Shown here: positions 1 to 21,053 of the stretch, one piece after another
How positions within the stretch are numbered: position 1 is the stretch's first letter
Layout of the letters: each line of letters opens with the position of its first letter
DNA from: JALSIF01 sp026981635 [NCBI: bacterium]
GTDB taxonomy: Bacteria > 4484-113 > JALSIF01
Assembly (NCBI GenBank): GCA_026981635.1
Contig: JALSIF010000122.1
Location: 1-21,053 of the forward strand
Length of the DNA stretch: 21,053 bases
Reading direction: 5' to 3'
The notes under the pieces: model-generated
The model's input: only the letters and a program-made list of their open reading frames with translations
Databases searched by the model: none
What the model was told of the DNA's origin: nothing
Program-made: the position numbers and the translations under genes

Positions 1-618
1 GCCATAGGAGCAGTAGGCGGTGGCCTGGGCGTAGTCAATCTTTGCCCTAAGTGTCTGCAGGGGAACCCTGCCCCAGTGGTACCACTCCTTGCGCCTCATC
101 TCGGCGCCGTTGAGTCTCCCCTTGACTTGGATGCGCACCCCCACTCCGGTGACCTTATCACTCTTCTGCAGGGCCTCAAGCTCCTGCACCACCCTTTTTA
201 GGGCCTGCTTGAGCACCCGGCGGAAGTTGATCCGCCGCTCAATCTGCTGGGCTATATTCTGGGCCACCACCTGGGCGGAGAGGTCCGGCTTGGTCACCTC
301 ATAGAACTCCAGGCTGACCTGCTGGTCGGGGTCAACCATCTTTTGCAGCTCAGCAATAAGCCTTAGCTTGTTCTCGCCCCCCCGGCCGATGGCCATTCCC
401 ATCCGCACCACATGGGCGTTAACCCGCACCTCTCCCAGCCTCCGCTTGATCTCAATCTTCTCCGGCTGGGCGTTCTTGAGCTCCTTGAAAAGGAACTCGC
501 GAATCCTAAAGTCCTCCATCACATAGTCGGGATACTTGCGCTTGGGCGCAAACCAGACGGAGTCCCAGTTTTCTACCGTCCACAGCCTGAAGCCCTTGGG
601 GTGTGTCTTCTGTCCCAT
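1..618 (-). CDS. rpsC: 30S ribosomal protein S3, 3' end missing
   Basis: S3 sits at the mRNA entry channel of the small subunit, binds 16S rRNA in the head and contributes to mRNA helicase activity. I translated the minus strand from the ATG at 618. It gives 206 codons with no stop before the window edge, so the C-terminus is missing. The start [10 protein letters not shown] matches the family, and a good AGGAAG Shine-Dalgarno site precedes it. The KH domain is present, with its GxxG loop as GRGG at residues 78-81 (commonly GKKG). The C-terminal S3 domain is recognisable from [14 protein letters not shown] (residues 167-180) and [14 protein letters not shown] (183-196). The linker before GVGVRIQV looks about ten residues longer than in E. 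coli. It follows rplV by 15 bases, as usual in the S10 operon. Confidence 0.96.
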
Positions 619-633
619 GGTGTATCTTCCTGC

Positions 634-1074
634 CTAGCCTTCTCCCGCCGCCTTGGGGCGGTTCCACTTGAGCCTTCCCTTGCGGATCGCCCGCCGCATC
701 CCCCGGATCCAGCGGCGCTCTTCAAGCTTCTTCCGATAGACCTCCGCCTCCTCCAGGATGATGGTCACGTGGGTGGTGCGCTTGCGCTCCAGGAATGCCC
801 GGCCCCGGGCGCGGGGACGGATGCGCTTATAGATGGGCCCCCGGTCGGCGATCACATTCTCCACCACCAGCTCGTCCCGGTTCAGGTTGTGGTTGTGCTC
901 CGCATTGGCCACCGCCGAGCGAAGCAGCTTCCTCAGCATCTTGCACACCTTGGAGGGCATCACCTGGAGGATGGCGTCCGCCTCCCTTACCGGCTTGCCC
1001 TTGATCAGGCGTCCGTAGCGGCGCACCTTGTTTGGCTGGGCAAACATGAAGCGGTGGATGGCGCGGGTCTGCAT
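634..1074 (-). CDS. rplV: 50S ribosomal protein L22 with a basic C-terminal extension
   Basis: L22 binds 23S rRNA, and its long beta-hairpin lines the peptide exit tunnel opposite L4. The core is clear: NKVRRYGRLIKGKPVREA near residues 15-32, SAVANAEHNHNLNRDEL at 53-69, and the hairpin segment with RIRPRARGRAF (84-94), followed by HVTIILEE. The protein is 146 residues, while the family usually has about 110-120. The extra residues, roughly 113-146, form an arginine/lysine-rich tail (14 basic of 34). The ATG start lies two bases after the rpsS stop codon, which implies translational coupling. Identity is certain; the role of the tail is unknown. Confidence 0.97.
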   Translation of the reverse strand: MQTRAIHRFMFAQPNKVRRYGRLIKGKPVREADAILQVMPSKVCKMLRKLLRSAVANAEHNHNLNRDELVVENVIADRGPIYKRIRPRARGRAFLERKRTTHVTIILEEAEVYRKKLEERRWIRGMRRAIRKGRLKWNRPKAAGEG

Positions 1075-1076
1075 GG

Positions 1077-1361
1077 CTACTTGCCCCTCCTCGCCTTCTT
1101 GGCCTCCTTGCCGTGCCCCCGGTAGGTGCGGGTGGGGGCAAACTCGCCCAGCCGGTGGCCCACCATCTCCTCGGTCACATAGACCGGGAAGAAGCGGCGC
1201 CCATTGTGTACCTCAAAGGTAAGCCCGATCATCTCCGGGGTGATCATGGAGGCACGCGACCAGGTGCGGATGGGCTCACGGCGGTTCTCCTTAATCGCCC
1301 GCCGCACCTTCTTCATCAGCTTGGGATGGACGTATGGTCCCTTCTTGCTGGATCTGCTCAT
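1077..1361 (-). CDS. rpsS: 30S ribosomal protein S19
   Basis: S19 sits in the head of the small subunit, contacts S13 and takes part in the subunit bridge near the P site. The reading frame is open upstream to 1523, but that part overlaps rplB in another frame. The family start [11 protein letters not shown] maps to the ATG at 1361, giving a normal 94 residues. A GGTAGGTGA Shine-Dalgarno region just upstream supports it. Conserved parts include [35 protein letters not shown] and the end segment [14 protein letters not shown]. It starts 7 bases after the rplB stop and is followed 2 bases later by rplV. Confidence 0.97.
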
Positions 1362-1368
1362 GGTTTGA

Positions 1369-2205
1369 TCACCTACCCACCCTGCGGTCACGCACCAGGT
1401 GCCGGAGGCTCTTTCTGGGCGAGCGGGTCTTCTTCCCCTTGGCATAGACCCCGGTCCTGGACTGGGGCGGCATGGCGGTTCCCGCCTTGCCCTCGCCGCC
1501 GCCGTGGGGGTGGTCCACCGCATTCATCGCCGCTCCCCTGACATGGGGGCGGCGGCCGCGGTGGAAGGAGCGACCCGCCTTGCCCAGCTTCTGGTTGGAG
1601 TTGTCCACGTTGGAGACCCGCCCCACCGTCGCCCGACAGCGGGCGTGGATGTAGCGCATCTCCCCGCTGGGGAGTCTCACCACCACCCGGTCCTTCTCCA
1701 GCTCCTTGGCCATCAGCTGGGCGAAGCTGCCCGCCGCCCGCACCAGCTGGGCTCCCCGGCCGGGGATGAGCTCAATGTTGTGGATCAGGGTGCCGTCGGG
1801 GATACGGGCCAGGGGCAGGGTATTGCCCGGCCGGATGGGAGCGTCCTCGCCGCTCTGCACCACATCCCCCACCTTGATCCCATGGGGAGCGATGATGTAG
1901 CTGCGGGTGCCGTCGGGATACTCAATCAGGGCGATGAAGGCGGTGCGGTTGGGGTCATACTGGAGGCTTACCACCTTGGCCGGCTCACCGTCCCGGCTGC
2001 GCTTGAAGTCCACCAGGCGGTACTTGCCCCGGTAGGCGTTGCGCCTGTGGGGGGCGGTGACCCGCCCCTGGTTGTTGCGCCCCGCCCGCCGGTGGAGGGG
2101 AACCAGGAGCTTCTTCTCCGGCGGATCCTTGCTGAGCTCAGAATAGTCAATGCTCAGCCACTGGCGGGTGCCGGGCGTAACTGGCTTGTGCTTCTTAAGT
2201 GGCAT
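1369..2205 (-). CDS. rplB: 50S ribosomal protein L2
   Basis: L2 is a primary 23S rRNA-binding protein needed for subunit association and for the peptidyl-transferase region. Its 278 residues match the usual length. The N-terminal OB-fold domain contains [10 protein letters not shown] (residues 6-15) and [14 protein letters not shown]. The C-terminal SH3-like domain ends with the diagnostic [10 protein letters not shown] at 231-240, including the histidine near the peptidyl-transferase centre (His229 in E. coli). The basic tail [20 protein letters not shown] is also typical. It begins 11 bases after rplW and ends 7 bases before rpsS. Confidence 0.98.
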
Positions 2206-2216
2206 CGCTTGCTACC

Positions 2217-2510
2217 TCACACCGCCTCCAGAATGTCGGGAATGGTCTGGCCCTCGGCCAGAGTCACGATGGCCTTCTTGCGCTCCTTGGTCCAGTAGCG
2301 GTATCTGCCCACCCGCTTGGGCTTGCGGGGAAGCTTTACGATGTTTACCTTGACCACGTTCACCTGAAAGCGCTCCTCCACCGCCCGCTTCACATCGTGC
2401 TTGTTGGCGTCGGGGGCGATGTAGAAGGTGTACTTGCCCTGTGCCGTCTGCTCCAGGGAGCGCTCGGTGATCACCGGACCGAGCAGGACCTCTGCGGGGT
2501 GCTTAGTCAT
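2217..2510 (-). CDS. rplW: 50S ribosomal protein L23
   Basis: L23 lies at the exit of the peptide tunnel and docks trigger factor, the signal recognition particle and the Sec translocon. The 97 residues match the family. PVITERSLEQ (residues 12-21), YTFYIAPDANKHDVKRAVEERF (27-48) and VVKVNIVKLPRKPKRVGRYR are the usual L23 segments. The ATG overlaps the end of rplD by 8 bases, so the two genes are probably translationally coupled. The Shine-Dalgarno site GAGGAGG lies inside the sequence encoding the acidic tail of L4. Confidence 0.96.
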   Translation of the reverse strand: MTKHPAEVLLGPVITERSLEQTAQGKYTFYIAPDANKHDVKRAVEERFQVNVVKVNIVKLPRKPKRVGRYRYWTKERKKAIVTLAEGQTIPDILEAV

Positions 2511-3264
2511 CCTCGCTCACCTCCTCTCCCTCTACCTGACCGGAGTCCCCCTCGTCCCCGCTGGTATCTTCCTGGGCCTCCTCTCCGGCGTCGGACGGAG
2601 CTTCCAGAGCCGTCTCCTCTGCCTTTACCTCCGCCTCGTCCTCATCAGCCCCTGCCCCCACGTGCTCCTTCACTCCCAGCCTGACCATAAGCTCATCCCA
2701 GGCCTGGCGGGTGAAGATCACCCAGTCGTGGAAAGCAAGGTCGGGGGTATTTAGCCGGTCCACCGGCAGACACTTTATCCGCGGGTGGTTGCGGGCGGCG
2801 GTGAGCACTTTGTCCCCCCGCAGGCAGAAGATGAGCACCTTGCCGTCAAAGCCCCCCTCGCTGAAGAAACCGTCCAGCAGGCGGGTCTTCTCCACCTGCC
2901 GGAGATCGTCGTCCAGAGTCAGCCAGAGGCTTCCGTCGTGGGCGTGATGGAGCAGAGCAGAGATCAGGGCGCGGCGAGCCTGCTTGCGGTTGATCTTGAT
3001 CTTCTTTATCCGCGGCTTGGGTCCAAAGGCCACCGCCCCGTGGTACATGTGGACGTTGCCCCGCTCGCCCTGGCGGGCGCGGCCGGTTCCCTTCTGGCGG
3101 AAAACCTTGCGCCCCGAGTAGGAGAGCTCCGAGATGCGCTTGGTGTTGGCGGTGCGGCGGTAGCCGTTCACCTGGGCCACCCGAATGGCCTCCTGAATGG
3201 CCAGGTAGTCGGGCTCCACCCCCTGGTAGCCGGGAAGCTCCTTGATCTGCTTTAGCTCCGCCAT
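2503..3264 (-). CDS. rplD: 50S ribosomal protein L4 with a long acidic C-terminal tail
   Basis: L4 binds 23S rRNA early in assembly, and its extended loop lines the exit tunnel. In E. coli it also represses its own S10 operon. The loop region is typical: [20 protein letters not shown] (residues 51-70), then [11 protein letters not shown]. The globular core ends near residue 200. It is followed by about 51 extra residues (203-253) with 22 Asp/Glu and a single Lys, so the protein is 253 residues instead of about 205. The end of the tail encodes the rplW Shine-Dalgarno site. It starts 6 bases after rplC, whose last codons (GAG GAG GGC) supply its own Shine-Dalgarno site. Confidence 0.96.
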
Positions 3265-3270
3265 CTCGGG

Positions 3271-3987
3271 TTAGCCCTCCTCGCTGGCGGCGGCCACCGC
3301 CTCGGCCACCTCCGGCTGGGAGGCCGCCTCCTCGGGCACCTCCTCCCAGTCCACCACTTCCACAAACAGCTGCCCTCCCCGCGGACCGGGGACGCTGCCG
3401 TCAACCACCAGCAGGTTCAGCTGCGGGTTGTACTCAAAGACGCCCAACCTGAGGATGGTCACCGTCTTCCCCCCGAAGCGACCGGGCCGCTTGCTGCCCT
3501 TGAAGACCCGGGCCGGGTCGGTGGCGTTGTTGCTGGCCGGGGCGCGGTGGAAGGACTTGGTGCCGTGGGTGCGGCTCTGGCCGTGGAAGCCCCACCGCTT
3601 CATCGCCCCGGCAAAGCCCCGCCCCTTGCTCTTGCCGGTGACGTTTACTTCCAGCCATCCTCGGCAAATCTGCTGGGGCTCAATCTTCTGCCCCACCTCA
3701 ACCTGGACCTCCTCCCCCTCGGGAGGACGGTACTCGTAAAAGTAGCGCAGGGGAACCTCTATTCCCGCCTTCTTGAGCTCACCTTGGACAGGTTTCGTGA
3801 CGTGCTTCCAGGTGGTCTCCCCGTAGGCCAGCTTTACCGCGTGATAGCCGTCCTTGGCCGGGGTCTTGATCTGCACCACCCATACCGGCAGGGGCTGAAG
3901 CAGGGTGACGGCCATGCCGTCCCCCACCTCGTCAAAGGCGGTGGTCATCCCCACCTTGATTGCTGGTATGCGCCTGATCATGGCCAT
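3271..3987 (-). CDS. rplC: 50S ribosomal protein L3 with an acidic C-terminal tail
   Basis: L3 is an early-assembling 23S rRNA-binding protein that reaches toward the peptidyl-transferase centre. The start MAMIRRIPAIKVGMTTAFDE, the segment GKSKGRGFAGAMKRWGFHG (residues 118-136), DPARVFKGSKRPGRFG (157-172) and VDGSVPGPRGG near residue 200 identify it. The region that normally reads like FHRRPGSIGA is changed here to FHRAPASNNA (147-156). After the core, residues 213-238 form an acidic, alanine-rich tail with 9 acidic and no basic residues. The protein is 238 residues, against about 205-215 in most bacteria. It begins 2 bases after the rpsJ stop. Confidence 0.96.
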   Translation of the reverse strand: MAMIRRIPAIKVGMTTAFDEVGDGMAVTLLQPLPVWVVQIKTPAKDGYHAVKLAYGETTWKHVTKPVQGELKKAGIEVPLRYFYEYRPPEGEEVQVEVGQKIEPQQICRGWLEVNVTGKSKGRGFAGAMKRWGFHGQSRTHGTKSFHRAPASNNATDPARVFKGSKRPGRFGGKTVTILRLGVFEYNPQLNLLVVDGSVPGPRGGQLFVEVVDWEEVPEEAASQPEVAEAVAAASEEG

Positions 3988-3989
3988 GG

Positions 3990-4298
3990 CTAGCTTGCCT
4001 TCACCTCTACATCCACCCCGGTGGGCAGGTCCAGGTTGACCAGCATGTCAATGGTCTGCTGGGGCGGTTCCAGGATCTCAATCAGTCGCTTGTGGATCCT
4101 GAGCTCAAAGTGCTCCATGGACCGCTTGTCCACGTGGGGTGAGCGGTTGACGCACCACACCTTGCGCTCGGTGGGAAGCGGGATCGGTCCAACCACCTTG
4201 GCGCCGGTGCGCTCCGCCATGTCCACGATGAGCTGCACGCTGTCGTTTAAGAGCCGGTGGTCGTAGCTTCTCAGCTTGATGCGGATCTTTTCCCTCAT
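3990..4298 (-). CDS. rpsJ: 30S ribosomal protein S10 (NusE)
   Basis: S10 is in the head of the 30S subunit and, as NusE, also acts in transcription antitermination with NusB and binds the C-terminal domain of NusG. The frame is open to a GTG at 4304. A GGTGAG Shine-Dalgarno site at 4304-4309 sits five bases before the ATG at 4298, so I place the start there, giving 102 residues (usual 101-105). Family segments are [37 protein letters not shown] and [14 protein letters not shown]. It is the first gene of the S10 operon. A strong intrinsic terminator ends only 18 bases before the start codon, which is unusual. Confidence 0.96.
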
Positions 4299-4303
4299 AA
4301 CCA

Positions 4304-4309
4304 CTCACC
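4304..4309 (-). promoter_or_regulatory. Shine-Dalgarno site that fixes the rpsJ start
   Basis: GGTGAG lies five bases upstream of the ATG at 4298. It would overlap an alternative GTG at 4304, which therefore has no usable site. Only seven bases separate it from the U-tract of the upstream terminator. Confidence 0.7.
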
Positions 4310-4316
4310 CACGGTC

Positions 4317-4348
4317 AAAAAAGGACCGGGTCCCGAAGGACCCGGTCC
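4317..4348 (-). terminator. Strong intrinsic terminator between tuf and rpsJ
   Basis: Read on the minus strand, GGACCGGGTCC is followed by a TTCG tetraloop, then GGACCCGGTCC, then six T residues (4322-4317). This is an 11-base-pair perfect stem with a very stable UUCG loop and a U-tract, the textbook form of a rho-independent terminator. It begins 12 bases after the tuf stop codon and should end the str operon transcript. No room remains for a separate promoter before rpsJ, so the S10 operon may depend on controlled readthrough at this site. Confidence 0.95.
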
Positions 4349-4360
4349 CCCATGGTCACC

Positions 4361-5554: not shown

Positions 5555-5617
5555 TTTGTCTCCTACGCTCCTTGCCCTTGGTTTCCCTCGGTCCGCCGAA
5601 GCTGATTATCATACCTC

Positions 5618-7699
5618 TCAGGCCTCGACGGCTACTTTATCCCTCACTCGGTCCTCCACCGACTGGGGCACCGGGGCGTAGTGGTCAAACTCCATCACGA
5701 ACTCCGCCCGCCCCTGGGTCTTGTTGCGAAGGTCAGTAGCATAGCCGAAAGTCTCCGCCAGGGGGACGAAGGCCTGAATGACCGCCTTGCCCCGATTGTC
5801 CTGGTCAACTGCGGTGATCTTGCCCCGCCGGCTGTTGAGGTCACCGATAACATCCCCCATATACTGCTCGGGGACGGTCACCTCAACCTTCATGATGGGC
5901 TCCATGAGTATCGGCCCCGCCTTCATCACCGCATCCTTGAGGGCCATCTGGGCGGCGATGCGGAAGCTGATCTCGTCCGAGTCAACCTCGTGGTAGCTCC
6001 CGTCATAGAGCTCCACCTCAATGCCGGTAAGCGGATAGCCGAAGACCACCCCGGTCTCCATCGCCTCCCGAAGCCCCTTCTCCACCGCCGGGATGTACTC
6101 CTTGGGGATCACCCCGCCCACGATCTTGTTGTGGAAGATGAAGGGTGTCCCGTCGGTGGTGGGCCGGATGCGGATGTAGCACTCGCCATACTTGCCCCGC
6201 CCGCCGGTCTGGCGGACGAAGCGGCCATGCCCCTCCGCCTCCCGGGTGATGGCCTCCCGGTAGCTCACCTGGGGCTTGCCCACGTTGGCTGCCACCTTAA
6301 ACTCCCTCAGCAGCCGGTCCACGATGATCTCCAGGTGGAGCTCACCCATCCCGGAGATGATGGTCTGGCCGCTCTCCTCGTCCATCCTCACCTGGAAGGT
6401 GGGGTCCTCCTCGGCCAGCTTGGCCAGCGCGTTGGATAGCTTGTCGGTGTCGGCCTGGCTCTTGGGCTCCACCGCCACCGCAATCACCGGCTCGGGGATG
6501 TGGATGGACTCCAACAGGATGGGATGCTTGGGGTCGCACAGGGTGTCGCCGGTGCGGGTCTCCTTTAGTCCGATCAGGGCGACGATGTCGCCCGCCCTAG
6601 CCTGGTCAATGTCCTCCCGGTGGTTGGCGTGCATGCGTAGGATGCGCCCGATGCGCTCGTGCTTTCTGACCGCCGGGTTCCACACCGAGCTCCCCTTCCT
6701 CAGGGTCCCGCTGTAGATGCGAACGTAGGTCAGCCGGCCCACATGCTGGTCAGTGGCGATCTTGAAGGCCAGCATGGCAAGGGGCTCACTGGGGTCGGGC
6801 CTTCTTATCTCTACCCGGTCGGGGTGATCGGGGTGGACCCCCTCCACCGGAGGAAGGTCCAGCGGGGAGGGGAGGTAGTCCACCACCCCGTTGAGCAGAA
6901 GCTGGACCCCCTTGTTCTTGAAGGCCGAGCCACAAAATACCGGCACCAGCTTGTTGGCGATGACTCCCTCGCGGATTACCTTCTTTAGCTGCTCCTCGGA
7001 GATCTGTTCCCCTTCCAGGTACTTCTCCAGCAGGCTGTCGTCCAGCTCGGCCAGCCCCTCCACCAGCTTTTCCTGGTGCTCCTGGAAGGTGGGCATCAGT
7101 TCCTCCGGGATCTCCTCCTCCCGGTAGGTCTTGCCCATCACATCCTCGGTGTAGTACATCGCCTTGCCCGCCACCAGATCAATCACCCCGATAAATTCGG
7201 CCTCACTGCCGATGGGGATCTGGACCGGCAGGGCGTTGGCCCCCAGGCGGTCGCGCATCATCTGAACCACCATAAAGAAGTCGGCCCCCACCCGGTCCAT
7301 CTTGTTGACGAAGGCGATGCGGGGAACCTGGTAGCGCTCCGCCTGGCGCCAGACCGTCTCGGTCTGGGGCTGGACGCCAGCCACGGCGTCAAGCAAGATG
7401 ATCAGCCCGTCTAGAACCCTGAGACTGCGCTCAACCTCAATGGTGAAGTCAACGTGACCGGGAGTGTCAATGATGTTGATGTTGTGGTCCCGCCACATGC
7501 AGTAGGTGGCGGCAGAGGTGATGGTGATGCCGCGCTCCTTCTCCTGGACCATCCAGTCCATGGTGGCGGTCCCTTCGTGGACCTCGCCCACCTTGTGGGA
7601 GCGACCCGTGTAGAACAGAATCCGCTCGGTGAGCGTGGTCTTGCCCGCATCGATGTGCGCAGCAATCCCAATGTTTCTGACTCTGTCCAGACTGACCAT
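5618..7699 (-). CDS. fusA: Elongation factor G
   Basis: EF-G is the GTPase that drives translocation of tRNA and mRNA and helps recycle ribosomes. The 693 residues have the normal five-domain length. The G domain shows AHIDAGKTT (14-22), RGITI (56-60), DTPGHVDF (78-85) and NKMD (132-135). The tail domains contain [10 protein letters not shown] and the domain V region with [28 protein letters not shown] Shine-Dalgarno site is weak: the best match, GAGG, is about 12 bases from the ATG. Expression may depend on coupling to rpsG, which ends 62 bases upstream. It looks like the main housekeeping copy, not a divergent paralogue. Confidence 0.98.
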
Positions 7700-7761
7700 C
7701 TTGCTGCCGTGCCTCTATTACCACACGGGTCCCCACTACTTATCTCAGTCTCTCTGCCCGC

Positions 7762-8238
7762 TCACCAGCGGAACTGGGAGAAGGCGCGGTTGGCCTCAGC
7801 CATCCGGTGGGTATCTTCCTTCTTCTTGATGGCGGCGCCGGTGTTGTTGGCGGCGTCAATCATCTCGGCGGCAAGCTTCTCGGGGAACGACTTTCCCCTC
7901 CGCTGCCGGGCATAGGTCAAAAGCCAACGCATGGCCAGGGCGTAGCGCCGCTCAGTGCGCACCTCCACCGGAACCTGGTAGGTGGCACCCCCCACCCGCC
8001 GGCTCCTCACCTCCATCACCGGCATCAGGTTCTTGATCGCCTGCTCAAACACCTCAATGGGCTCCCGGCCGGTCTTCTCCCCCACGATCTTCATCGTCTC
8101 GTAGAAGAGCCGCATGGCCAGGGTCTTCTTGCCCCTCTTCATGATGTTGTTGATGAACTTGGCCACCAGAAGCGAGCCGTAGACCGGGTCGGGCTTGATG
8201 TACTTCTTGTTCTTGTACTCCTTCTTTCTGCGCGGCAT
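7762..8238 (-). CDS. rpsG: 30S ribosomal protein S7
   Basis: S7 starts assembly of the 30S head by binding the 3' domain of 16S rRNA and lies near the E-site tRNA. In E. coli it also represses translation of the str operon. The 158 residues agree with the family (about 156). Typical segments are [10 protein letters not shown] with [38 protein letters not shown] (residues 76-93) and [20 protein letters not shown]. It begins 17 bases after the rpsL stop and is followed by a 62-base gap before fusA. Confidence 0.97.
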
Positions 8239-8255
8239 GGCTCTGTGTCCCCTCG

Positions 8256-8627: not shown

Positions 8628-8667
8628 AACTGACAAAGCTCCCTACTCGGCTGGCTAAGAACCATAA

Positions 8668-8696
8668 ATGCTAGCACAGCCATCCCTGGCTGGCAA
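8668..8696 (-). promoter_or_regulatory. Probable promoter of the str operon (rpsL-rpsG-fusA-tuf)
   Basis: On the minus strand, TTGCCA (8696-8691) is followed by a 17-base spacer and TAGCAT (8673-8668). The bases TGC directly before the -10 box (8676-8674) form an extended -10 element. It lies wholly in the rpoC-rpsL gap, and transcription would start near 8661, about 34 bases before the rpsL ATG. The same TGC-TAnnnT form occurs before rpmG and rplK. This is a sequence match only. Confidence 0.55.
8677..8692 (-). other. Inverted repeat inside the rpsL promoter spacer
   Basis: CAGCCA, a GGGA loop and TGGCTG form a perfect 6-base-pair dyad. It starts 30 bases after the rpoC stop and fills most of the spacer between the -35 and -10 boxes. 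It has no T-run after it, so it is a poor intrinsic terminator. It could be a weak attenuating or processing hairpin at the end of rpoC mRNA, or an operator for a dimeric repressor. The evidence is the symmetry alone. Confidence 0.4.
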
Positions 8697-13558: not shown

Positions 13559-13561
13559 TTT

Positions 13562-16500
13562 CTACTCCACCTCCTCGTCAAACTCACCGTCCGACGGAAC
13601 GGTGGGCGGGGGAAGCTCGGGCACCTCCCCCCCATCACCGCCAACCGCTGAGCTGGCGAAGACCGTCTCCCTCATCCGGCGCTCGCGCTCCTCAATCTCC
13701 TCCTCGTAGTACTTGACCTCAACATTGAGCGCCAGGCTCTTGAGCTCGTTTACGATCACGTTGAACCCTTCCGGCAGACCCGGCTCGGGGATCAGGCGGC
13801 CATCCACGATGGCCTGGTAGGTGCGGCTGCGCCCCTCAACGTCGTCGCTCTTTATGGTGAGCATCTCCTTGAGCAGGTAGGCGGCACCGTAGCCCTCCAG
13901 CGCCCACACCTCCATCTCACCCAGTCGCTGACCGCCAAACTGGGCCTTGCCCCCCAGCGGCTGCTGGGTAATCAGGGCATAGCCACCGGTGGAGCGGGCG
14001 TGGATCTTCTCCTCCACCAGGTGGTGGAGCTTCATGATGTACATCACCCCCACCATCACCCGCTCCTTGAAGGGCTCGCCGGTCACCCCGTCATAGAGGA
14101 TGGTTTTGCCGTCCAGGGGCAGGTTGAGGTAGGCAAACAGCTGGCGAATCTGGTCCTCCTTCACCGATTGGAAGGGGGGCGACTTGACCTTGAGCGGATT
14201 TTTGGCCCGGCGCAGGCGGATCTCCTCCACCCCCTGAAGCTCATGCTTGCGCTTGGAGCGGTCAAAGTGGATAGGCTCCTCCTTGGCGAGGATCCGGCGC
14301 ACCTCCTCCAGCTGGCTCTCATCAATCATGGAGCAGGCCAGCCCAAGATGTGCCTCCAGCACCTGGCCGATGTTCATTCGGCTGGGCACGCCGAGGGGAT
14401 TCAGCACCATCTGGATGGGGGTCCCGTCGGGCAGGAAGGGCATGTCCTCCACCGGCAGCACCATGGAGATGACCCCCTTGTTGCCGTGCCGACCGGCGAT
14501 CTTGTCGCCCACCTGAAGCTTGAGCGTGCGGGCCACAAAGACCCGCGCCAGCTCCACCACGTTGTGGGGGAGGTCGTCCCCCTTCTCTCGGCTGAAGAAC
14601 TGGGTGTGGATGACCACCCCTTCCTCGCCGTGGGGAAGCTTTAGTGGGGTGTTCTTGTAGTTTCGCCCCTTCTCGCCGAAGACCATGCGGATGAGCTTCT
14701 CCTCCCCCGAGAGATCGGTCTCCCCCCGCGGGGTGATCTTGCCCACCAGCACATCCCCCGCCTTCACCCAGGCGCCCTCACGGATGATGCCCCGCTCGTC
14801 CAGAGTGCGCTCAATCTTGCTGGAGTACTGGCGCATCTCCCGGGTGATCTTTTCCGGTCCCACCTTGGTCTCCCGCGCCTCACACTCCAGCTTCTCAATG
14901 TGGATGGAGGTAAAGATGTCGTCGGTGACCAGCTCCTCGCTGACCAGCACCGCGTCCTCAAAGTTGTAGCCCCGCCAGGGGAGGAAGGCAACCAGCACGT
15001 TCTTGCCCAGGGCAAGCTCGCCACCACTGGTGGTGCTGCCGTCGGCCAGAAGATCCCCCTTGATGACTACGTCCCCCTCCTTGACCACCGGCCGCTGGTT
15101 GACCAGCGAGCCCTGGTTGGAGCGCTTGAACTTCCTCAGCTCAATGGTCTCATACTGCTCCATCTCCTCGGGCAGCGGCTTAAACACCCGGTCCTCCGGC
15201 GGGACCACCCGCTTCCGATCAAGCTCACGGCCCGGAGGAGTGAAAATATAGTCAAACTTGGACTCGGTGAGTACCAGCTCGGGGACCTTGTCGGTGACGT
15301 CCTGGTAGCGCTCCTTGAGCTGGCCAACGATCTCCTCCACGATCTCCCGGCTCTTGGCCCGCACCACAATCTCGTGCTCATCCAGCGGGTTGCGCTCAAA
15401 GACCAGGCTGGGGTAGAGCTTCTCCCGCAGGCGCGCCAGCCGCTTCATCGCCTCGGTGGCGTCCCGCTTGCGCACGAAGCGCACCGCGGTCAGGTTGGTG
15501 AGGGTTTCCAGGTTGGGCAGGTCCAGGATCTCGCCCGTCTGGCGGTCCCAGACGATCCCCTTGGCCAGGGTGATCTTCTCCGAGTCGGCATAGATCACCT
15601 GGCCACAGAAATGGCTCCTTAGCACCGCCCCGGAGTCCTCCGCCACCCGTCGCTCGTTGCCGGTACCCACCAGCGGGGCCTCTGGCTCAATCAGCGGAAC
15701 CGCCTGGCGCTGCATGTTGGAGCCCATCAGCGCCCGGTTGGAGTCGTCGTGCTCCAGGAAGGGGATGAGGGAGGTGGTAACGGAGACGAACTGGGCGGGG
15801 CTGATTTCAATCAGGTCCACCTCCTCCCGGCTCACCAACTCAATGTTGTCCCCCCTACGCACATGCAGGCGATCCTCCAGGATGCGCCCCCGCTTGTCGC
15901 GCTTTACGGTGGCCGGGGCGATACGGAACTTGGTGTCCTCAAAGGCGGGAAGATATTTCACCTCGCTTGAGATCACCCGGCCCTTCTTTACCGGGTGATA
16001 GGGGGTCTCCACAAAGCCATACTTGTTTAGCCGGGCATAGCCGGCCAGGCTGGTGATGAGGCCGATGTTCTGCCCCTCCGGGGTCTCAATGGGGCAGATG
16101 CGCCCATAGTGGCTGCGGTGGACGTCCCTGAAGTCAAACCGGGCGGCGTCCCGGGTGAGCCCCTTGGGTCCCAGGGCGGAGAGGCGACGCTTGTGGGTGA
16201 GGGAGGTGAGCGGATTGGTCTCGTCCATGAACTGGCTCATCTGGGAGGAGCCAAAGAACTCCTTGATCACCCCCGTAAGCGGCCGGGTGTTGATGAGCGA
16301 CTTGGGGCTCTCCTCTTCGGCGGTGGGCTGCATCATCCGCTCGGTGATGATGCGCTCCACCCGCATCATCCCCTTGCGCATCTGCTCCTGTAAAAGCTCG
16401 CCCACCGGCTCCACCCGCCGGTTCTCCAGGTTCAGGTGCTCGGTGTCGTCAAGCTGCCCCTTGCCCTCCTCCTGCAGCTCGTAGAGCTTGCGGAAGGTCT

Positions 16501-17482
16501 CCATGAAGTCGGCCACCGACAGCACCCGCCGATCAGGGCGGAGGTTGATGCCCAGCTTGCGGTTGACCATGTAGCGACCCACCTCGGCCAGGTCGTAGCG
16601 CACCGGGTCCATGTAGCGCCGCCGGAGCATCTCCTCCAGCTGAGCCTCGGTGAAGGAGTCGGTGGGGTTGAGCCGCTTCCAGATCTCTATCAGCGCCTCC
16701 CTCCGGTCGCGGGTGCGGTCCTCCTCCACGGTGGGCATGAGGGGCTGCTGGATGGGGAAGGGCTGGTTATCCCATTCCTCCTTGGTGAGGGGCTCCTGGT
16801 GGACGTTGCCCTCCCGGTCGGTGTAGAGATAGACCGGGTCGGGGTGATAGATCACCTTCTTCTCCAGGTCAACCGTAAAGCCCAGCGCGCGCAGGAACTG
16901 GGTGATGGGGATGCGCACCACCCTCCGGGTGGTGTCCAGGCGAACCTGATACACCTTCCTCCGCTTGTCGTACTGATACTTGAGCCAGGAGCCCCGGTAG
17001 GGAATCAGCTTCACCATTGGGGCATCCTCGCTGGCAGTGCGCTTCTGACCAGGAGTGAAATAGACCCCCGGCGAGCGCACCAGCTGGCTCACGATCACCC
17101 TTTCAACCCCGTTGATGATGAAGGTGCCGCGAGAGGTCATGAAGGGGATATCACAGATGTAGACCTCCTGGCGGATAATCTCCCCCTTCCGCTTAAGGTT
17201 GCGAAACTCAAAGATGCCCTTGATGGAGGCCGAGTAGTCCAGGTCCATCTCCAGGCACTCGGTATCGGCGTGCTCGGGCAGGATGACCTTGTAGTCCAGA
17301 AAGTGGAGCTCCAGTGCGCCGTCCTTGCTGCGGATGGGGAAGACCTCCTCAAAGACCTGCTTGAAGCCCTCAAAGAGGAACCAGCGGTAGCTCTCCACCT
17401 GGGTGGCGAGCAGGAAGGGAAACTCATACTCAATCAGGTCTTCACTGAGTGCGTGACGCCTGTCTAGAAGCATTCCTTTCAA
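13562..17482 (-). CDS. rpoB: DNA-directed RNA polymerase subunit beta with a large insertion
   Basis: Beta forms the second half of the RNA polymerase active cleft. The rifampicin pocket is at residues 411-434 (GSSQMSQFMDETNPL, then THKRRLSALGP), with the usual Gln, Asp, His, Arg and Ser contacts intact, predicting sensitivity. Further landmarks are CPIETPEGQNIGLI (463-476), KFKRSNQG (784-791), GYNFEDA (838-844), GDKIAGRHGNKGV (992-1004) and GGKAQFGGQRLGEMEVWALE (1177-1196). About 120 residues (roughly 642-775) are inserted just before the KFKRSNQ motif. The C-terminus carries an acidic, proline-rich tail. I choose the TTG start at 17482 because AGGAGG is eight bases upstream; the ATG at 17473 is too far from it. 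Confidence 0.97.
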   Translation of the reverse strand: MKGMLLDRRHALSEDLIEYEFPFLLATQVESYRWFLFEGFKQVFEEVFPIRSKDGALELHFLDYKVILPEHADTECLEMDLDYSASIKGIFEFRNLKRKGEIIRQEVYICDIPFMTSRGTFIINGVERVIVSQLVRSPGVYFTPGQKRTASEDAPMVKLIPYRGSWLKYQYDKRRKVYQVRLDTTRRVVRIPITQFLRALGFTVDLEKKVIYHPDPVYLYTDREGNVHQEPLTKEEWDNQPFPIQQPLMPTVEEDRTRDRREALIEIWKRLNPTDSFTEAQLEEMLRRRYMDPVRYDLAEVGRYMVNRKLGINLRPDRRVLSVADFMETFRKLYELQEEGKGQLDDTEHLNLENRRVEPVGELLQEQMRKGMMRVERIITERMMQPTAEEESPKSLINTRPLTGVIKEFFGSSQMSQFMDETNPLTSLTHKRRLSALGPKGLTRDAARFDFRDVHRSHYGRICPIETPEGQNIGLITSLAGYARLNKYGFVETPYHPVKKGRVISSEVKYLPAFEDTKFRIAPATVKRDKRGRILEDRLHVRRGDNIELVSREEVDLIEISPAQFVSVTTSLIPFLEHDDSNRALMGSNMQRQAVPLIEPEAPLVGTGNERRVAEDSGAVLRSHFCGQVIYADSEKITLAKGIVWDRQTGEILDLPNLETLTNLTAVRFVRKRDATEAMKRLARLREKLYPSLVFERNPLDEHEIVVRAKSREIVEEIVGQLKERYQDVTDKVPELVLTESKFDYIFTPPGRELDRKRVVPPEDRVFKPLPEEMEQYETIELRKFKRSNQGSLVNQRPVVKEGDVVIKGDLLADGSTTSGGELALGKNVLVAFLPWRGYNFEDAVLVSEELVTDDIFTSIHIEKLECEARETKVGPEKITREMRQYSSKIERTLDERGIIREGAWVKAGDVLVGKITPRGETDLSGEEKLIRMVFGEKGRNYKNTPLKLPHGEEGVVIHTQFFSREKGDDLPHNVVELARVFVARTLKLQVGDKIAGRHGNKGVISMVLPVEDMPFLPDGTPIQMVLNPLGVPSRMNIGQVLEAHLGLACSMIDESQLEEVRRILAKEEPIHFDRSKRKHELQGVEEIRLRRAKNPLKVKSPPFQSVKEDQIRQLFAYLNLPLDGKTILYDGVTGEPFKERVMVGVMYIMKLHHLVEEKIHARSTGGYALITQQPLGGKAQFGGQRLGEMEVWALEGYGAAYLLKEMLTIKSDDVEGRSRTYQAIVDGRLIPEPGLPEGFNVIVNELKSLALNVEVKYYEEEIEERERRMRETVFASSAVGGDGGEVPELPPPTVPSDGEFDEEVE

Positions 17483-17490
17483 GGCCTAAC

Positions 17491-17496
17491 CCTCCT
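17491..17496 (-). promoter_or_regulatory. Shine-Dalgarno site that fixes a TTG start for rpoB
   Basis: A perfect AGGAGG lies eight bases before TTG at 17482 and 17 bases before the first ATG at 17473. Normal spacing favours the TTG. A weak start codon behind a strong Shine-Dalgarno site could tune beta synthesis against the much more abundant L7/L12. Confidence 0.75.
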
Positions 17497-17523
17497 TTCG
17501 AAAAGCTTGCGGCCGTGCAAAGC

Positions 17524-17558
17524 GGGGCGCCGATCGGGCGCCTGCTATATCCCGCCCC
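17524..17558 (-). promoter_or_regulatory. Possible attenuator or processing hairpins in the rplL-rpoB gap
   Basis: The 94-base gap between rplL and rpoB contains GGCGCC, a five-base loop and GGCGCC (17542-17526), a perfect 6-base-pair stem. An alternative pairing joins CGCCCC/GGGGCG (17553-17558 with 17524-17529) and would exclude the first. No long T-run follows. In E. coli this gap holds an attenuator and an RNase III site that lower rpoBC relative to rplJL; a similar role here is inference. Confidence 0.45.
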
Positions 17559-17576
17559 TCGGTAGAGATAAGCAAC

Positions 17577-17960
17577 CTACTCCAGCTCGACCTGGGCTCC
17601 CGCCTCCTCCAGCTGCTTCTTGATCTCCTCTGCTTCGTTCTTGGGCACCCCCTCCTTGACCGGCTTGGGAGCGTTGTCCACCAGCTCCTTGGCCTCCTTG
17701 ATGCCGAGGCCGGTGACCTTGCGGATCACCTTGATCACGTCCAGCTTGCTACCCCCGATGGACTTGAGGATGACGTTGTAGCTAGACTTCTCCTCGGCCG
17801 CCTCGGCCGCCTCGCCTCCGCCGGCGGCCGCCGCTCCCGCCACCGGTGCAGCCGCCACCGCCGCGGTGACGCCCCAGCGCTCCTCCAGCTCCTTGACCAG
17901 CTCATTAAGCTGAACGACGGTGAGGCTCTCCAGCTTCTCAATGATCTCCTCGTAAGGCAT
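17577..17960 (-). CDS. rplL: 50S ribosomal protein L7/L12
   Basis: L7/L12 forms the multi-copy, flexible stalk that recruits and activates EF-Tu, EF-G and other GTPases. The layout is typical for 127 residues: an N-terminal dimerisation helix pair (about 1-33), an Ala/Gly/Glu-rich hinge (34-57), and the C-terminal domain from [20 protein letters not shown] (61-80) through [12 protein letters not shown] (84-95). AGGAGG lies 11 bases before the ATG. The 90-base gap from rplJ has a possible hairpin. More L7/L12 than L10 is needed per ribosome, so a separate translation signal fits. Confidence 0.98.
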
Positions 17961-17999
17961 CTTGTCCCAAACCTCCTGGTGATGGTTCTCCTACCCTCT

Positions 18000-18028
18000 A
18001 GGGGAACGCATATGTTTCTCTCTCCCCT
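18000..18028 (-). other. Possible hairpin in the rplJ-rplL gap
   Basis: AGGGGA (18028-18023) and TCCCCT (18005-18000) on the minus strand can pair across a 17-base loop. The stem is six base pairs and has no U-tract. It may stabilise or mark the rplL mRNA, whose product is made in excess, but a chance pairing in purine-rich sequence is possible. Confidence 0.25.
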
Positions 18029-18050
18029 CGCCTGGCTCCTGGCTTGTCCC

Positions 18051-18572
18051 CTACCCCTGCTCCGCCTTGGCCTTGAGTACCCGGGGCAGGCGGGAGAGGG
18101 TGCCCGCCAGTACCCCCACCAGCCGCTGGGGCACTCCCTTCATCAGGCCAAGCAGCTTGGCCTTCGCCTCCTCCTTGCTGAGCAGGTCGGTAAAGCGCCG
18201 GAACTCCTCCGCCGGGTAGGCCTTGCCGTCAAACCAGATCGCCTTGACCTGGCCGGCGGGAAAATCCCTCAGCTGCCGGTTTAGCTCGCGGATGGCCTTG
18301 GCCGACCCGCTCACGTCCTCCCGGCCAAAGACCACCATGGTGGGCCCACGGAGGGCCTCCAGCAGACCGTCCACCTCCATCCCCTCCAGGGCCCGCTTGG
18401 CCAGGGTGTTCTTGACCACCATGCAGTCGGCTCCCCGCCGCCTGAGCTCCTCCTTGAAGCTGTCGCGGGTCGCCACATCCATGCCCAGAAAGTCAATCAG
18501 GAAGGCAAAGTCCGCCTCGGCAAACACCTGCCTGATCCTTTCCACCCGCTTGGCCTTTTCCTTGCGCCTCAT
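18051..18572 (-). CDS. rplJ: 50S ribosomal protein L10
   Basis: L10 anchors L7/L12 dimers to the ribosome through its C-terminal helix and binds 23S rRNA together with L11. The 173 residues match the family. Recognisable are the N-terminal basic segment, MVVKNTLAKRALEG (residues 51-64), GPTMVVFGREDVSGSAKAI (76-94) and the C-terminal L12-binding region from about DLLSKEEAKAK to the end. The gap from rplA is only 21 bases, too short to hold the long folded L10 leader that many bacteria place before rplJ. A GGGGGA site precedes the ATG. Confidence 0.96.
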   Translation of the reverse strand: MRRKEKAKRVERIRQVFAEADFAFLIDFLGMDVATRDSFKEELRRRGADCMVVKNTLAKRALEGMEVDGLLEALRGPTMVVFGREDVSGSAKAIRELNRQLRDFPAGQVKAIWFDGKAYPAEEFRRFTDLLSKEEAKAKLLGLMKGVPQRLVGVLAGTLSRLPRVLKAKAEQG

Positions 18573-18593
18573 GGTCTTATCCCCCGCGCCCGT

Positions 18594-19292
18594 TTAGATG
18601 AACTCCCTCAGGTCAACCTTGACCGACGGGGTCTGGGTAGCGCTGAGGTAGAGGGACTTGAGGTAGCCCGCCCGGCTGAGGGCGGCAGGCTTTACCCGCA
18701 TCAGCTCCTGAACCAGGTGGCGCACATTCTCCACCAGCTGGTCCACCTCAAAGCCCGCCTTGCCCACCGGCACATGGACCACCCCGGTGCGGTCTACCCG
18801 AAACTCCAGCTTGCCCCGCTTAAACTCCTCCACCGCATGGGCCACATCGTTGGTCACCGTCCCCGCCTTGGGGTTGGGCATAAGCCCCCGCGGTCCTAGG
18901 ATGCGGCCCAGCTTTCCCACCTCGGCCATCATCTGGGGGGTGGCGATGACCACATCAAAGTCCAGCCAGCCCTCCTTCTGGATCTTCTCCACCAGCTCCT
19001 TGCCACCGGCAAAGTCGGCCCCCGCCTCCTCGGCCACCTTGATCAGGTCTCCCTCGTGGGCGATGACCACCACGGTGGGGGTCTTGCCGGTGCCGTGGGG
19101 GAGGGTGGTGGTGCCGCGTATGTTCTGTTCCGGCTTTCTGGGGTCAACCCCCAGGCGGGCCGAAAGTTCCACCGTCTCCCAGTCGCGGGCCATCTGCTTC
19201 ACCAGCTCCACTGCCTCCCTCAGGGGGTGGGCCACGGTGCGCGGGCCCCGCTTCTCGGCCAAACTGAGGTATCGCTTGGTGCGCTGGGGCAT
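18594..19292 (-). CDS. rplA: 50S ribosomal protein L1
   Basis: L1 forms the mobile stalk that helps release E-site tRNA, and in many bacteria it represses the rplK-rplA mRNA. The 232 residues match the family. The signature GKLGRILGPRGLMPNPKAGT lies at 126-145, and LPHGTGKTPTVVV (64-76) and VHVPVGKAGF are also typical. The ATG comes two bases after the rplK stop, so translation is likely coupled. I do not see an obvious L1-binding leader in the short upstream region before rplK. Confidence 0.97.
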   Translation of the reverse strand: MPQRTKRYLSLAEKRGPRTVAHPLREAVELVKQMARDWETVELSARLGVDPRKPEQNIRGTTTLPHGTGKTPTVVVIAHEGDLIKVAEEAGADFAGGKELVEKIQKEGWLDFDVVIATPQMMAEVGKLGRILGPRGLMPNPKAGTVTNDVAHAVEEFKRGKLEFRVDRTGVVHVPVGKAGFEVDQLVENVRHLVQELMRVKPAALSRAGYLKSLYLSATQTPSVKVDLREFI

Positions 19293-19294
19293 GG

Positions 19295-19720
19295 CTAGAG
19301 TTCCACCTCCACTCCCATGCTGCGGGCGGTGCCGGCAATGATCTTCATCGCCTGCTCCACGTCGTTGGCGTTGAGGTCCTTCATCTTGTGCTCGGCGATC
19401 TGGCGAAGCTGATCCTTGGTGAGCTTGCCTACCTTCTCCTTGTTGGGCACCCCGGAGCCCTTCTCAATCCCCAGCGCCCGCTTGATGAGCAGGGCTGCCG
19501 GGGTGGTCTTGAGGTCAAAGTCAAAGCTGTTGTCGTGGTAGACCCGGATGACGGTGGGGATGATGTCTCCCTTGCGGTCCTGGGTGACATCGTTGAACTT
19601 CTTGCAGAAGTCCATGATGGGGATGCCGTGCTGGGCCAGGGCAGGGCCCAGGGGGGGTGCCGGACGGGCCGCCCCACCCTCAATGTGCACCTTGATGATG
19701 GCTTTTATGGGCTTGGCCAT
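19295..19720 (-). CDS. rplK: 50S ribosomal protein L11
   Basis: L11 binds the GTPase-associated region of 23S rRNA, the thiostrepton site, and is needed for RelA activation in species that have it. The 141 residues match exactly. The N-terminal domain has [14 protein letters not shown] (residues 20-33), including the prolines linked to thiostrepton binding, and [19 protein letters not shown] follows. The C-terminal rRNA-binding domain ends [12 protein letters not shown]. An AGGGGAAAG region precedes the ATG. A probable extended -10 promoter sits 24 bases upstream, so this gene likely starts a sub-operon leading to rpoBC. Confidence 0.98.
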
Positions 19721-19743
19721 GGCTTCTTTCCCCTAATCTTCAG

Positions 19744-19772
19744 ATGATAGCACCAAATCCAGATTTAGTCTT
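19744..19772 (-). promoter_or_regulatory. Probable extended -10 promoter upstream of rplK
   Basis: On the minus strand TGC-TATCAT (19752-19744) has five of six consensus -10 bases plus an extended TGn. A poor -35 match, AAGACT (19772-19767), lies 17 bases further up, inside the end of nusG. Transcription would begin near 19737, leaving a leader of only about 17 bases. E. coli has a strong promoter in this same nusG-rplK gap. The call rests on sequence and position only. Confidence 0.5.
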
Positions 19773-20331
19773 CCTCCGCTCCCACCTTCTCGGGTGCATC
19801 CTCCAGCCGCTCCACTTGCTCAAAGTTGAGCTCAAGCAGGGTGTCACGGCCAAAGATGCTCAGCACAATCTTTACCTTCTGGCGCTCCGGTTCTATCTCT
19901 TTCACCTTGCCCAGCATCTCGGCGAAGGGACCGGAGAGGATCTTTACCGTGTCCCCCACCTCATAGCTGGTCACCACCTCGGCCTCCTCCTGCTCCATGC
20001 GGCGGAAGATCTCCTCCACCTCCTCGTTGGTGAGGGGCTGAGGCTTGCCGCCCGGGCCGACAAAGCCGATCACCCCCTTGACGTGCCTGAGCAGGTGCTG
20101 GGTCTCCACGTCCAGGCTGGCCCTGACCAGGATGTAGCCGGGGAAGAGCTTGCGCTTGCGCTTCTGCTTCTTGCCCTTGTAGACCTCGGTGCGGGTCTCG
20201 TAGGGGACCACCACCTCCTCCACCCGGTTGATCCCCTCCTTGACGAACTGGCCCTGCTCAATCATGTGCTGGATGGCCTCGGCCACCTTCTGCTCCTGAC
20301 CCGAGAGAACATGGAGAACGTACCAGCGCAT
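19765..20331 (-). CDS. nusG: Transcription elongation and coupling factor NusG
   Basis: NusG binds the RNA polymerase clamp through its N-terminal domain and contacts Rho or ribosomal S10 through its KOW domain. The 188 residues match the family. WYVLHVLSGQEQKV (residues 3-16), FPGYILVRASLD (63-74) and GVIGFVGPGGKPQPLTNEE (86-104) mark the N-terminal domain. The KOW motif runs about 124-150 (GDTVKILSGPFAEMLGKVKE). The protein ends in a short acidic tail. It begins three bases after secE, as in most bacteria. Its partner S10 (rpsJ) lies further along the same array. Confidence 0.98.
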   Translation of the reverse strand: MRWYVLHVLSGQEQKVAEAIQHMIEQGQFVKEGINRVEEVVVPYETRTEVYKGKKQKRKRKLFPGYILVRASLDVETQHLLRHVKGVIGFVGPGGKPQPLTNEEVEEIFRRMEQEEAEVVTSYEVGDTVKILSGPFAEMLGKVKEIEPERQKVKIVLSIFGRDTLLELNFEQVERLEDAPEKVGAEED

Positions 20332-20334
20332 CGC

Positions 20335-20643
20335 CTACACCCCCACCCCGATGAGGGAGAAGATCCCGTCAACGATGAGGCTCAGCAGGGTAACGATGAG
20401 GGTCATCACCCCGGTAAAGATGAGCACCCCAAAGGTCATCCGCCACAGCTCACCGCGACTTGACTTGGTCCACTGCTCCCGCTTGGGCCAGTGCCAGTCG
20501 GGAAAGGTAATCCGGTTCCACTCCGCCTTGAGCTCGCGCATGAAGTTGGCCAGCCGGCTGCGGGTGCGCCGGGGATGGGCCGCCTCGCTAGTGTCGGTGG
20601 CGGGCTTGGGCTTGGCCTCGGTAGTAGTGGTGGTCTTTGCCAT
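20335..20643 (-). CDS. secE: Preprotein translocase subunit SecE
   Basis: SecE is the essential small subunit that clamps SecY in the cytoplasmic membrane. The 102 residues have a polar, Thr/Lys-rich N-terminus (about 1-28), the amphipathic segment FMRELKAEWNRITFPDW (34-50), and one membrane helix at about 70-92. The usual conserved motif reads like ELKKVTWPTREE; here a few residues (DWHWPK) are inserted between the TFP and REQW parts. This is a single-span SecE with a longer N-terminus than the roughly 60-residue forms. The position between tRNA-Trp and nusG confirms the call. Confidence 0.93.
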   Translation of the reverse strand: MAKTTTTTEAKPKPATDTSEAAHPRRTRSRLANFMRELKAEWNRITFPDWHWPKREQWTKSSRGELWRMTFGVLIFTGVMTLIVTLLSLIVDGIFSLIGVGV

Positions 20644-20688
20644 CTGACCTTCCCCGTACCTTGCTCAGCAAAAAAAGACCTCAGGAAG

Positions 20689-20761
20689 CAGGGCCAGCGG
20701 GACTCGAACCCACAACCCCCGGTTTTGGAGACCGGTGCTCTACCAATTGAGCTATGGCCCT
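20689..20761 (-). tRNA. trnW: tRNA-Trp (anticodon CCA)
   Basis: The 73-base minus-strand sequence folds as a complete cloverleaf. It has a 7-base-pair acceptor stem (AGGGCCA/TGGCCCT), a D-arm, an anticodon stem CCGGT/ACCGG around loop CTCCAAA (anticodon CCA), a five-base variable loop, and a T-arm with TTCGAGT. The discriminator is G, as in bacterial tRNA-Trp. The 3' CCA is not encoded (the next bases are CTT), so a CCA-adding enzyme is required. It lies between rpmG and secE in the same orientation and must be cut from the mRNA. Its T-loop holds one of only five TCGA sites found in the window. Confidence 0.97.
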
Positions 20762-20768
20762 TCGGTTC

Positions 20769-20781
20769 CCTCGCGGCGAGG
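20769..20781 (-). other. Small hairpin just before tRNA-Trp
   Basis: CCTCG, a three-base loop and CGAGG form a 5-base-pair stem ending eight bases before the tRNA 5' end. It could help tRNA excision or protect the end of the rpmG message. The stem is short and may be incidental. Confidence 0.25.
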
Positions 20782-20803
20782 TCCTCTAATCCTTATACCC
20801 GGC

Positions 20804-20974
20804 TCACTTGGTCTCCCGGTGTAGGGTGACGTGCCGGCAAAAGCGGCAGTACTTTTTGAGCTCAAGCTTGCCCGGGGTGTTGTGCCGGTTTTTGAAGGTG
20901 CGGTAGTTTCGCTGCCCGCACTCACTACAAGCAAGCACGATCATGATGCGACTGCCTTTCTTGCGCTTGGCCAT
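20804..20974 (-). CDS. rpmG: 50S ribosomal protein L33, zinc-binding form
   Basis: L33 is a small 50S protein near the E site. I translated it directly from the sequence: 56 residues from the ATG at 20974 to TGA at 20804. The start [10 protein letters not shown], the core [14 protein letters not shown] and the end [16 protein letters not shown] are typical. Cys16, Cys19, Cys43 and Cys46 give the CxxC...CxxC zinc site, so this is the zinc-containing (C+) form that some bacteria swap for a Cys-free copy under zinc shortage. Its place before tRNA-Trp, secE and nusG is a common arrangement. GGGAGAG lies about ten bases before the start. Confidence 0.96.
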
Positions 20975-21024
20975 GGGACGCTCTCTCTCCCGCTACTGCC
21001 GCTCGCCAGGGAGCCGGACCAGGT

Positions 21025-21053
21025 AGATTAGCAGAGATCTGACCTCCTGACAA
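21025..21053 (-). promoter_or_regulatory. Probable promoter of the rpmG-trnW-secE-nusG unit
   Basis: On the minus strand TTGTCA (21053-21048, five of six -35 bases) is followed by a 17-base spacer and TAATCT (21030-21025). TGC directly before the -10 box (21033-21031) forms an extended -10. Transcription would begin near 21018, about 44 bases before rpmG. Nothing beyond the -35 box is visible because the window ends there. Confidence 0.6.

Follow-up and report, generated by a model that had tools for sequence, protein, structure and literature searches.

The tetranucleotide TCGA has been lost almost completely from the genome of the bacterium JALSIF01 sp026981635 (GTDB lineage Bacteria; 4484-113; JALSIF01; assembly GCA_026981635.1), and here we describe this loss from a stretch of 21,053 bases (contig JALSIF010000122.1, called the window below) outward to the rest of the genome. 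The loss is real, specific, extreme, and genome-wide: the 355,733 readable bases hold 62 TCGA sites, which is 0.05 of the number expected from base composition and 0.09 of that expected under an order-2 Markov model, the latter being a conservative yardstick because the loss of TCGA itself reduces TCG and CGA. In our best reading, to which we assign a probability of roughly 0.75, it reflects long selection by a TCGA-specific orthodox Type II restriction-modification (R-M) system, and it is from the footprint that we infer a restriction enzyme as the cause. The window is contig C122 of a metagenome-assembled genome (MAG) of 1,745,230 bases in 317 contigs, 85 % complete, from which 60 further contigs were taken; 10 of these, all shorter than 3,000 bases, consist entirely of N, and negatives from searches of this genome are therefore not proof. 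The readable sample consists of 51 contigs with a G+C content of 0.634.

Within the window TCGA occurs five times, at exactly the coordinates given in the original prediction, which was made from the letters of the window (Table 1). It had put the number expected from base composition at about 70 to 80, and the computed value is 70.6; 100 dinucleotide shuffles give 64.5 (standard deviation 7.4), and the order-2 Markov model gives 38.6, from which the Poisson probability of five or fewer sites is about 1e-11. TCGA has the lowest observed/expected ratio of all tetranucleotides in the window (0.13), followed by AATT (0.31; 2 against 6.4) and CTAG (0.43; 17 against 39.6), and the neighboring words and GATC are indeed common, with plus-strand counts of 140 for TCGG, 87 for TCGC, 75 for TCGT, 77 for CCGA, 37 for ACGA, 125 for GATC, and 146 for AGCT. 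When the proteins of the window were kept and codons were drawn according to the usage of the sampled genome, 300 draws yielded a mean of 116.1 sites in the coding sequences (CDSs) (standard deviation 7.8, minimum 92), where three are found. The claimed shift in codon choice before GA is equally plain: phenylalanine is written TTT in 32 of 32 cases before GA and TTC in 127 of 179 elsewhere, and isoleucine before GA is ATT in 49 and ATC in one of 54 cases, with ATC taking 282 of 320 elsewhere.

Table 1. Coordinates of the window, its surviving TCGA sites, and the two DNA methylase genes found in the genome (positions without a contig name refer to the window)
Feature	Position	Strand	Remarks
Whole window	1-21053		Serves as a sample of the TCGA loss across the genome; its minus strand carries ribosomal-protein and rpoBC genes (identified by eye)
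Surviving TCGA	5625-5628		In CDS 5618-7699 (EF-G, named by eye from the translation)
Surviving TCGA	7650-7653		Near the start of CDS 5618-7699 (EF-G, by eye)
Surviving TCGA	17498-17501		Between the rpoB-like CDS (13562-17482) and the next CDS
Surviving TCGA	17587-17590		End of CDS 17577-17960 (L7/L12, named by eye)
Surviving TCGA	20704-20707		T-loop of tRNA-Trp
tRNA-Trp (cca)	20688-20761	minus	Holds one surviving TCGA
CcrM-like methylase, 292 aa	C157:14447-15322	minus	PF01555
DpnA/CcrM-like methylase domain	C275:766-1446		PF01555

What the window shows holds for the genome. TCGA stands at or below 0.16 of its base-composition expectation in all 51 readable contigs and is absent from 21 of them. 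The 314 genes called with our own script, which was trained on bulk codon usage and overlooks low-GC genes (the methylase gene of contig C275 included), contain 39 sites compared with 1,582 (standard deviation 26) under synonymous shuffling, a ratio of 0.025, so that TCGA is the lowest tetranucleotide in the sampled genes as in the window; the next lowest, among those with an expectation above 100, are CGCG (0.348) and GTAC (0.37). The four lowest pentanucleotides are the four that contain TCGA, and TCGA lies within 21 of the 22 lowest hexanucleotides listed; the target is therefore the bare palindrome. Equal loss of GATC and AGCT, or a genome-wide TCGA ratio near 1, had been named as outcomes that would speak against the original prediction; in the sampled genome TCGA lies far below 1, GATC at 0.79 to 0.83, and AGCT at 1.12 to 1.28. 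The readable DNA that belongs to neither called genes nor tRNAs, about 31 kb (31,417 bases including tRNAs; the 54,949 intergenic bases include 24,202 N), retains 14 sites, compared with 130 in 43 kb of relatives of the same class.

Within its class, the loss is also confined to this lineage. In 20 stretches (378,664 bases) from eight of nine class relatives, G007 being left out, 1,719 sites stand against 1,987 expected by synonymous shuffling (0.87). The longer allowed pattern SSTCGASS, counted across the assembled genome against its reversed control, occurs 27 times here against 2,065 (0.013), whereas in the nine further class members the counts range from 584 to 4,093 and the ratios from 0.25 to 1.43, from which it follows that the near-total loss belongs to this lineage. 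Among the best 80 named rpoB loci of other bacteria, a selection skewed by the peptide patterns behind it, TCGA ratios have a median of 1.25 and go no lower than 0.52.

The genes show how so deep a loss could be attained. Synonymous escape from TCGA is possible in every reading frame by the genetic code, and near-complete loss in genes is therefore attainable. In the called genes, the TTC share of phenylalanine is 0.8 % before GA (TTT taking 99.2 % of 491 codons), 42 % of 999 before other codons starting with G, and 73 % of 1,594 before C or T; the ATC share of isoleucine is correspondingly 2.1 % of 633, 79 % of 1,220, and 85 % of 1,968, and class relatives use TTC at 63 % and ATC at 52 % before GA. 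Valine GTC (0.5 %) and leucine CTC (0.4 %) are likewise rare before GA, serine TCG falls to 0.2 % before A, and arginine CGA makes up 1.0 % after T compared with 4.2 % otherwise. In codon phases 1, 2, and 0 there remain 29, 8, and 2 sites, respectively, against 1,420, 68, and 231 in the relatives, the loss being weakest in phase 2.

The 62 survivors are distributed over tRNAs (10), called genes (38; the shuffling test has 39, as it includes an additional site within a called gene), and uncalled DNA (14). The original prediction had noticed that one survivor of the window sits in a tRNA T-loop, and this extends to the genome: the TTCGA of the T-loop is kept in all nine of its own tRNAs that were found, with no sign of purging in any of the nine, and in 20 of 23 tRNAs of relatives. 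Two of the 14 uncalled survivors lie in a 6S RNA, two in or beside a low-GC R-M island on contig C275, and several others in AT-rich stretches. In 1-kb segments with a G+C content below 0.50, of which there are only five, four sites outside RNA genes stand against 17.4 expected by composition (0.23), and in segments of at least 0.62 there are 25 against 811 (0.03), a contrast with P of 0.006; it leaves out RNA genes, two of the six low-GC survivors being in a tRNA, and with them P is 3e-4. The low-GC segments, presumably imports, thus seem less purged of TCGA.

If a restriction system is the cause, the lineage would have been host over a long period to an orthodox Type II R-M system recognizing TCGA, under which unmethylated chromosomal sites would be exposed to cutting, so that each site would carry a small cost. 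Sites would then have been swapped out, mostly by synonymous changes, until some 2.5 % of the expected number remained in genes; TCGA fixed by other functions, as in tRNA T-loops and 6S RNA, would persist, and recently acquired low-GC DNA would appear less purged. The enzyme may lie in the missing part of the MAG, may have been lost recently, or may have been the lost partner of the solitary methylase on contig C157 that is discussed below. Given how few sites have re-formed, the pressure would be active still or would have ended only a short evolutionary time ago.

Such a history has precedents in the literature. Genomes avoid the recognition sites of orthodox Type II systems that are long-lived, and the avoidance can outlast a system that has been lost (PMC4687349). 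The present genome resembles such cases in that a palindromic tetranucleotide is avoided genome-wide in one lineage, as happens with or without a system being found, and its Karlin-type ratio for TCGA (0.08 by our own formula, which may differ from the published one) is far below the threshold of 0.78 (PMC4687349). The loss described here is an unusually deep further case of this established restriction-site avoidance.

The nearest parallel in the literature examined is Helicobacter pylori, in which the beta-class methylase M.HpyAX (hp0260) produces N6-methyladenine at TCGA, with 608 sites in strain 26695 (PMC3936762), and in which TCGA, as here, is strongly avoided (PMC7379913). It differs in that its TCGA methylase has been tested, whereas no methylase with a known TCGA target was found here. 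The present genome is GC-rich (0.634) and its loss about twice as deep: the 608 sites amount to about 0.10 of the base-composition expectation, calculated with background values for the genome size and G+C content of H. pylori, compared with 0.05 here. Thermus, proposed in the original prediction, is a weaker match. TthHB8I recognizes the same word. So does TaqI (PMC5587805). In a 50 kb stretch of the plasmid pTT27 of Thermus thermophilus HB8, however, the loss of TCGA is only mild (0.58 by the order-2 Markov model and 0.35 by base composition, against 0.09 and 0.05 here), and neither the TaqI endonuclease nor the TaqI_C/Eco57I methylase of that system was found in our genome.

The search for the enzyme covered the TaqI endonuclease and six methylase families in the assembled genome, with control panels of 14 genomes. 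RE_TaqI (PF09573) had no match in the assembled genome at E <= 10 (controls: matches in 2 of 14, over the cut-off in 1), TaqI_C (PF12950) had none (6 of 14, over the cut-off in 2), and Eco57I (PF07669) had none (13 of 14, over the cut-off in 10); the C5 methylase family PF00145 and PF02086 likewise had none, and PF02384 gave one sub-threshold match. TaqI-type genes were accordingly set aside as the agent, within the limits of an 85 % complete MAG. The idea of long exposure to a TaqI-like system therefore stood in part: a deep, lineage-limited loss is what long TCGA restriction predicts, but the TaqI/TthHB8I type was not supported, as PF09573, PF12950, and PF07669 all lack a match. The genomes searched for a cognate endonuclease or methylase included no other member of the family or genus. 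Phosphorothioation was also set aside, DndC (TIGR03183) not having been found, a weak negative in that the control panel never exceeded the cut-off.

Several observations weigh against restriction as the cause. Across the families searched, no endonuclease or methylase with a TCGA target was found, and the only two DNA methylases found, both PF01555, have other expected targets. CGCG (0.35) and GTAC (0.37) are low in genes as well, and CpG is low overall (rho 0.67 compared with 1.06 in class relatives); part of the fall of TCGA therefore belongs to a wider deficit. For H. pylori, a strong avoidance of GTAC as well as TCGA is reported (PMC7379913). Codons ending in C are scarcer before any G (GTC 6.5 %, CTC 8.5 %, and TTC 42 % before GC, GG, or GT), and since GTC and CTC are already low before other G, part of the fall in valine and leucine is general. 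Uncalled DNA is less depleted by the Markov model (14 against 45.7, 0.31) than genes are, the contrast between low-GC and high-GC segments depends on four sites, and the T:A odds ratios of valine and leucine, given below, speak for a change from C to T.

That last point bears on a purely mutational loss, in which a cytosine methylase acting at TCGA would produce 5-methylcytosine that deaminates to T, turning the word into TTGA or TCAA without any selection. Both products are raised in genes (TTGA 2.04 and TCAA 1.43 over the codon-shuffle expectation, compared with 1.30 and 1.31 in relatives), but they are also the necessary product of any synonymous escape of phenylalanine and isoleucine. Third positions before GA give T:A odds ratios of 3.5 for valine and 2.8 for leucine against 1.3 for alanine, 1.3 for proline, 1.8 for glycine, and 2.1 for threonine, whose interval of 1.0 to 4.3 overlaps the former two; the T:G odds ratios (valine 3.3, leucine 1.9) fall inside the control range of 1.6 to 7.0. 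Serine before A shows no shift to TCA (14 % of TCA+TCC+TCT, compared with 9 to 21 % in other contexts), CpG is scarce with no matching gain of CA (1.08 both here and in class relatives), and the C5 methylase family is among those not found in the assembled genome. Deamination therefore appears very improbable, and selection against TCGA is judged the better reading, though not proven. A pressure on RNA or translation, such as a ribonuclease cutting UCGA or a codon-pair bias, would accord with the stronger loss in genes (0.025 by shuffling) than in uncalled DNA (0.31 by Markov model), figures obtained with different yardsticks; we consider it highly improbable, as all three codon phases are hit, uncalled DNA is depleted as well, and TCGA is retained in transcribed tRNAs (nine of nine found), structured and modified as these are. 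That the loss is an artifact of assembly or sequencing, which the fragmentation of the MAG into 317 contigs might suggest, deserves next to no credence: the loss is expressed in the codons chosen within open genes and recurs in every one of the 51 readable contigs, and breakage at TCGA would cut contigs, not exchange codons.

The remaining alternatives concern which system acted. One is that the CcrM-like methylase on contig C157 is a TCGA methylase left behind after loss of its endonuclease, the TCGA loss being the trace of a dead system. This gene is solitary, with no endonuclease gene directly adjoining (the neighbors were identified by eye); apart from it, the search found just one DNA methylase. 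CcrM itself has the target GANTC, for which function it needs its C-terminal part. The best solved relative of the C157 product is a CcrM chain (6pbd; 239.6 bits, E 4.6e-70), with a match covering residues 13-259 of the 366-residue chain, and among plasmid sequences it comes closest to alphaproteobacterial methylases (identity about 45 to 50 %); its expected target by homology is thus GANTC, but the C-terminal part of CcrM is missing, so this specificity is not assured. Copies 56 % identical occur in the class relatives G006 and G003, neither of which avoids TCGA (a ratio of 0.88 in both, over 40 and 120 kb, respectively). The TCGA sites of H. pylori are methylated by a beta-class enzyme (PMC3936762) that is called solitary, with strong avoidance of the word (PMC7379913), and the C157 methylase is therefore a real candidate, although its sequence speaks for GANTC; on balance we hold this origin to be unlikely. 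Also doubtful, at best, is the proposition that the agent is a TCGA-targeting defense or DNA-processing system of another kind than TaqI, which acts in this lineage, lacks both a TaqI endonuclease and any recognizable TCGA methylase, and lies behind one of the deepest tetranucleotide losses known in a bacterium.

In G006 the copy of the C157 methylase is followed by a type II endonuclease (PADLOC REase_II, PDLC03497; no Pfam match); this was rejected as a lead, as it has no homologue in our genome or in eight other relatives (of the 10 genomes, only G006 itself matched). On C157, a low-GC gene some 6 kb away from the methylase (7013-8140, minus strand) encodes an HSDR_N nuclease domain (PF04313) and has a marginal match to the SeqA C-terminal domain (PF03925; 26.1 bits, cut-off 25.5); its product is perhaps a methyl-sensing nuclease.

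The second methylase belongs to an island on contig C275 (about 622-2487) with a G+C content of 0.42 in a genome of 0.63, where a DpnII-family endonuclease (PF04556, E 2.6e-73) comes after it and a superoxide-dismutase-like gene (by eye) lies beside the two. The pair resembles DpnII and the system of plasmid pSRQ700 of Lactococcus lactis, in which a DNA adenine methylase and a type II endonuclease adjoin the matching methylase; the methylases are 52 % and the endonucleases 32 % identical. The pSRQ700 system is presumably LlaDCHI, and GATC specificity is expected from its family, the record naming none. By its composition and homology the island is probably a recently gained R-M system with GATC as its expected target, and it fails to account for the loss of TCGA: the systems related to it target GATC, its composition departs from that of the genome, and the class relative G009, which has a similar methylase/endonuclease pair, is low in GATC (0.41) and not in TCGA (1.10, in 20 kb). 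In our genome GATC is not much avoided (0.82). Other palindromes are avoided in a sister family, namely GATC in G006 (0.36) as well as in G009, CATG in both (0.56 and 0.59), and GGCC in G009 (0.46), in 40 and 20 kb, respectively.

Two further observations concern other contigs. Contig C270 carries a short array of clustered regularly interspaced short palindromic repeats (CRISPR) at 25-471, with six repeats spaced about 80 bases apart; the repeat and the cores of four of its five spacers had no exact match in viral_contigs. On contig C1, an open frame at 6079-7170 (minus strand) in a very AT-rich region (G+C 0.39) has no Pfam match, and we take its DITHSFR stretch, by eye, to recall CRISPR proteins of the Csx1/Csm6 type.

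A single four-base word has shaped this genome to an unusual depth and with unusual clarity, to the point that the choice of synonymous codon for phenylalanine or isoleucine depends on whether the next codon starts with GA. Footprints of this kind can point to restriction systems of uncultured lineages even where an assembly lacks the enzyme genes, and they may help to date the gain or loss of such systems.

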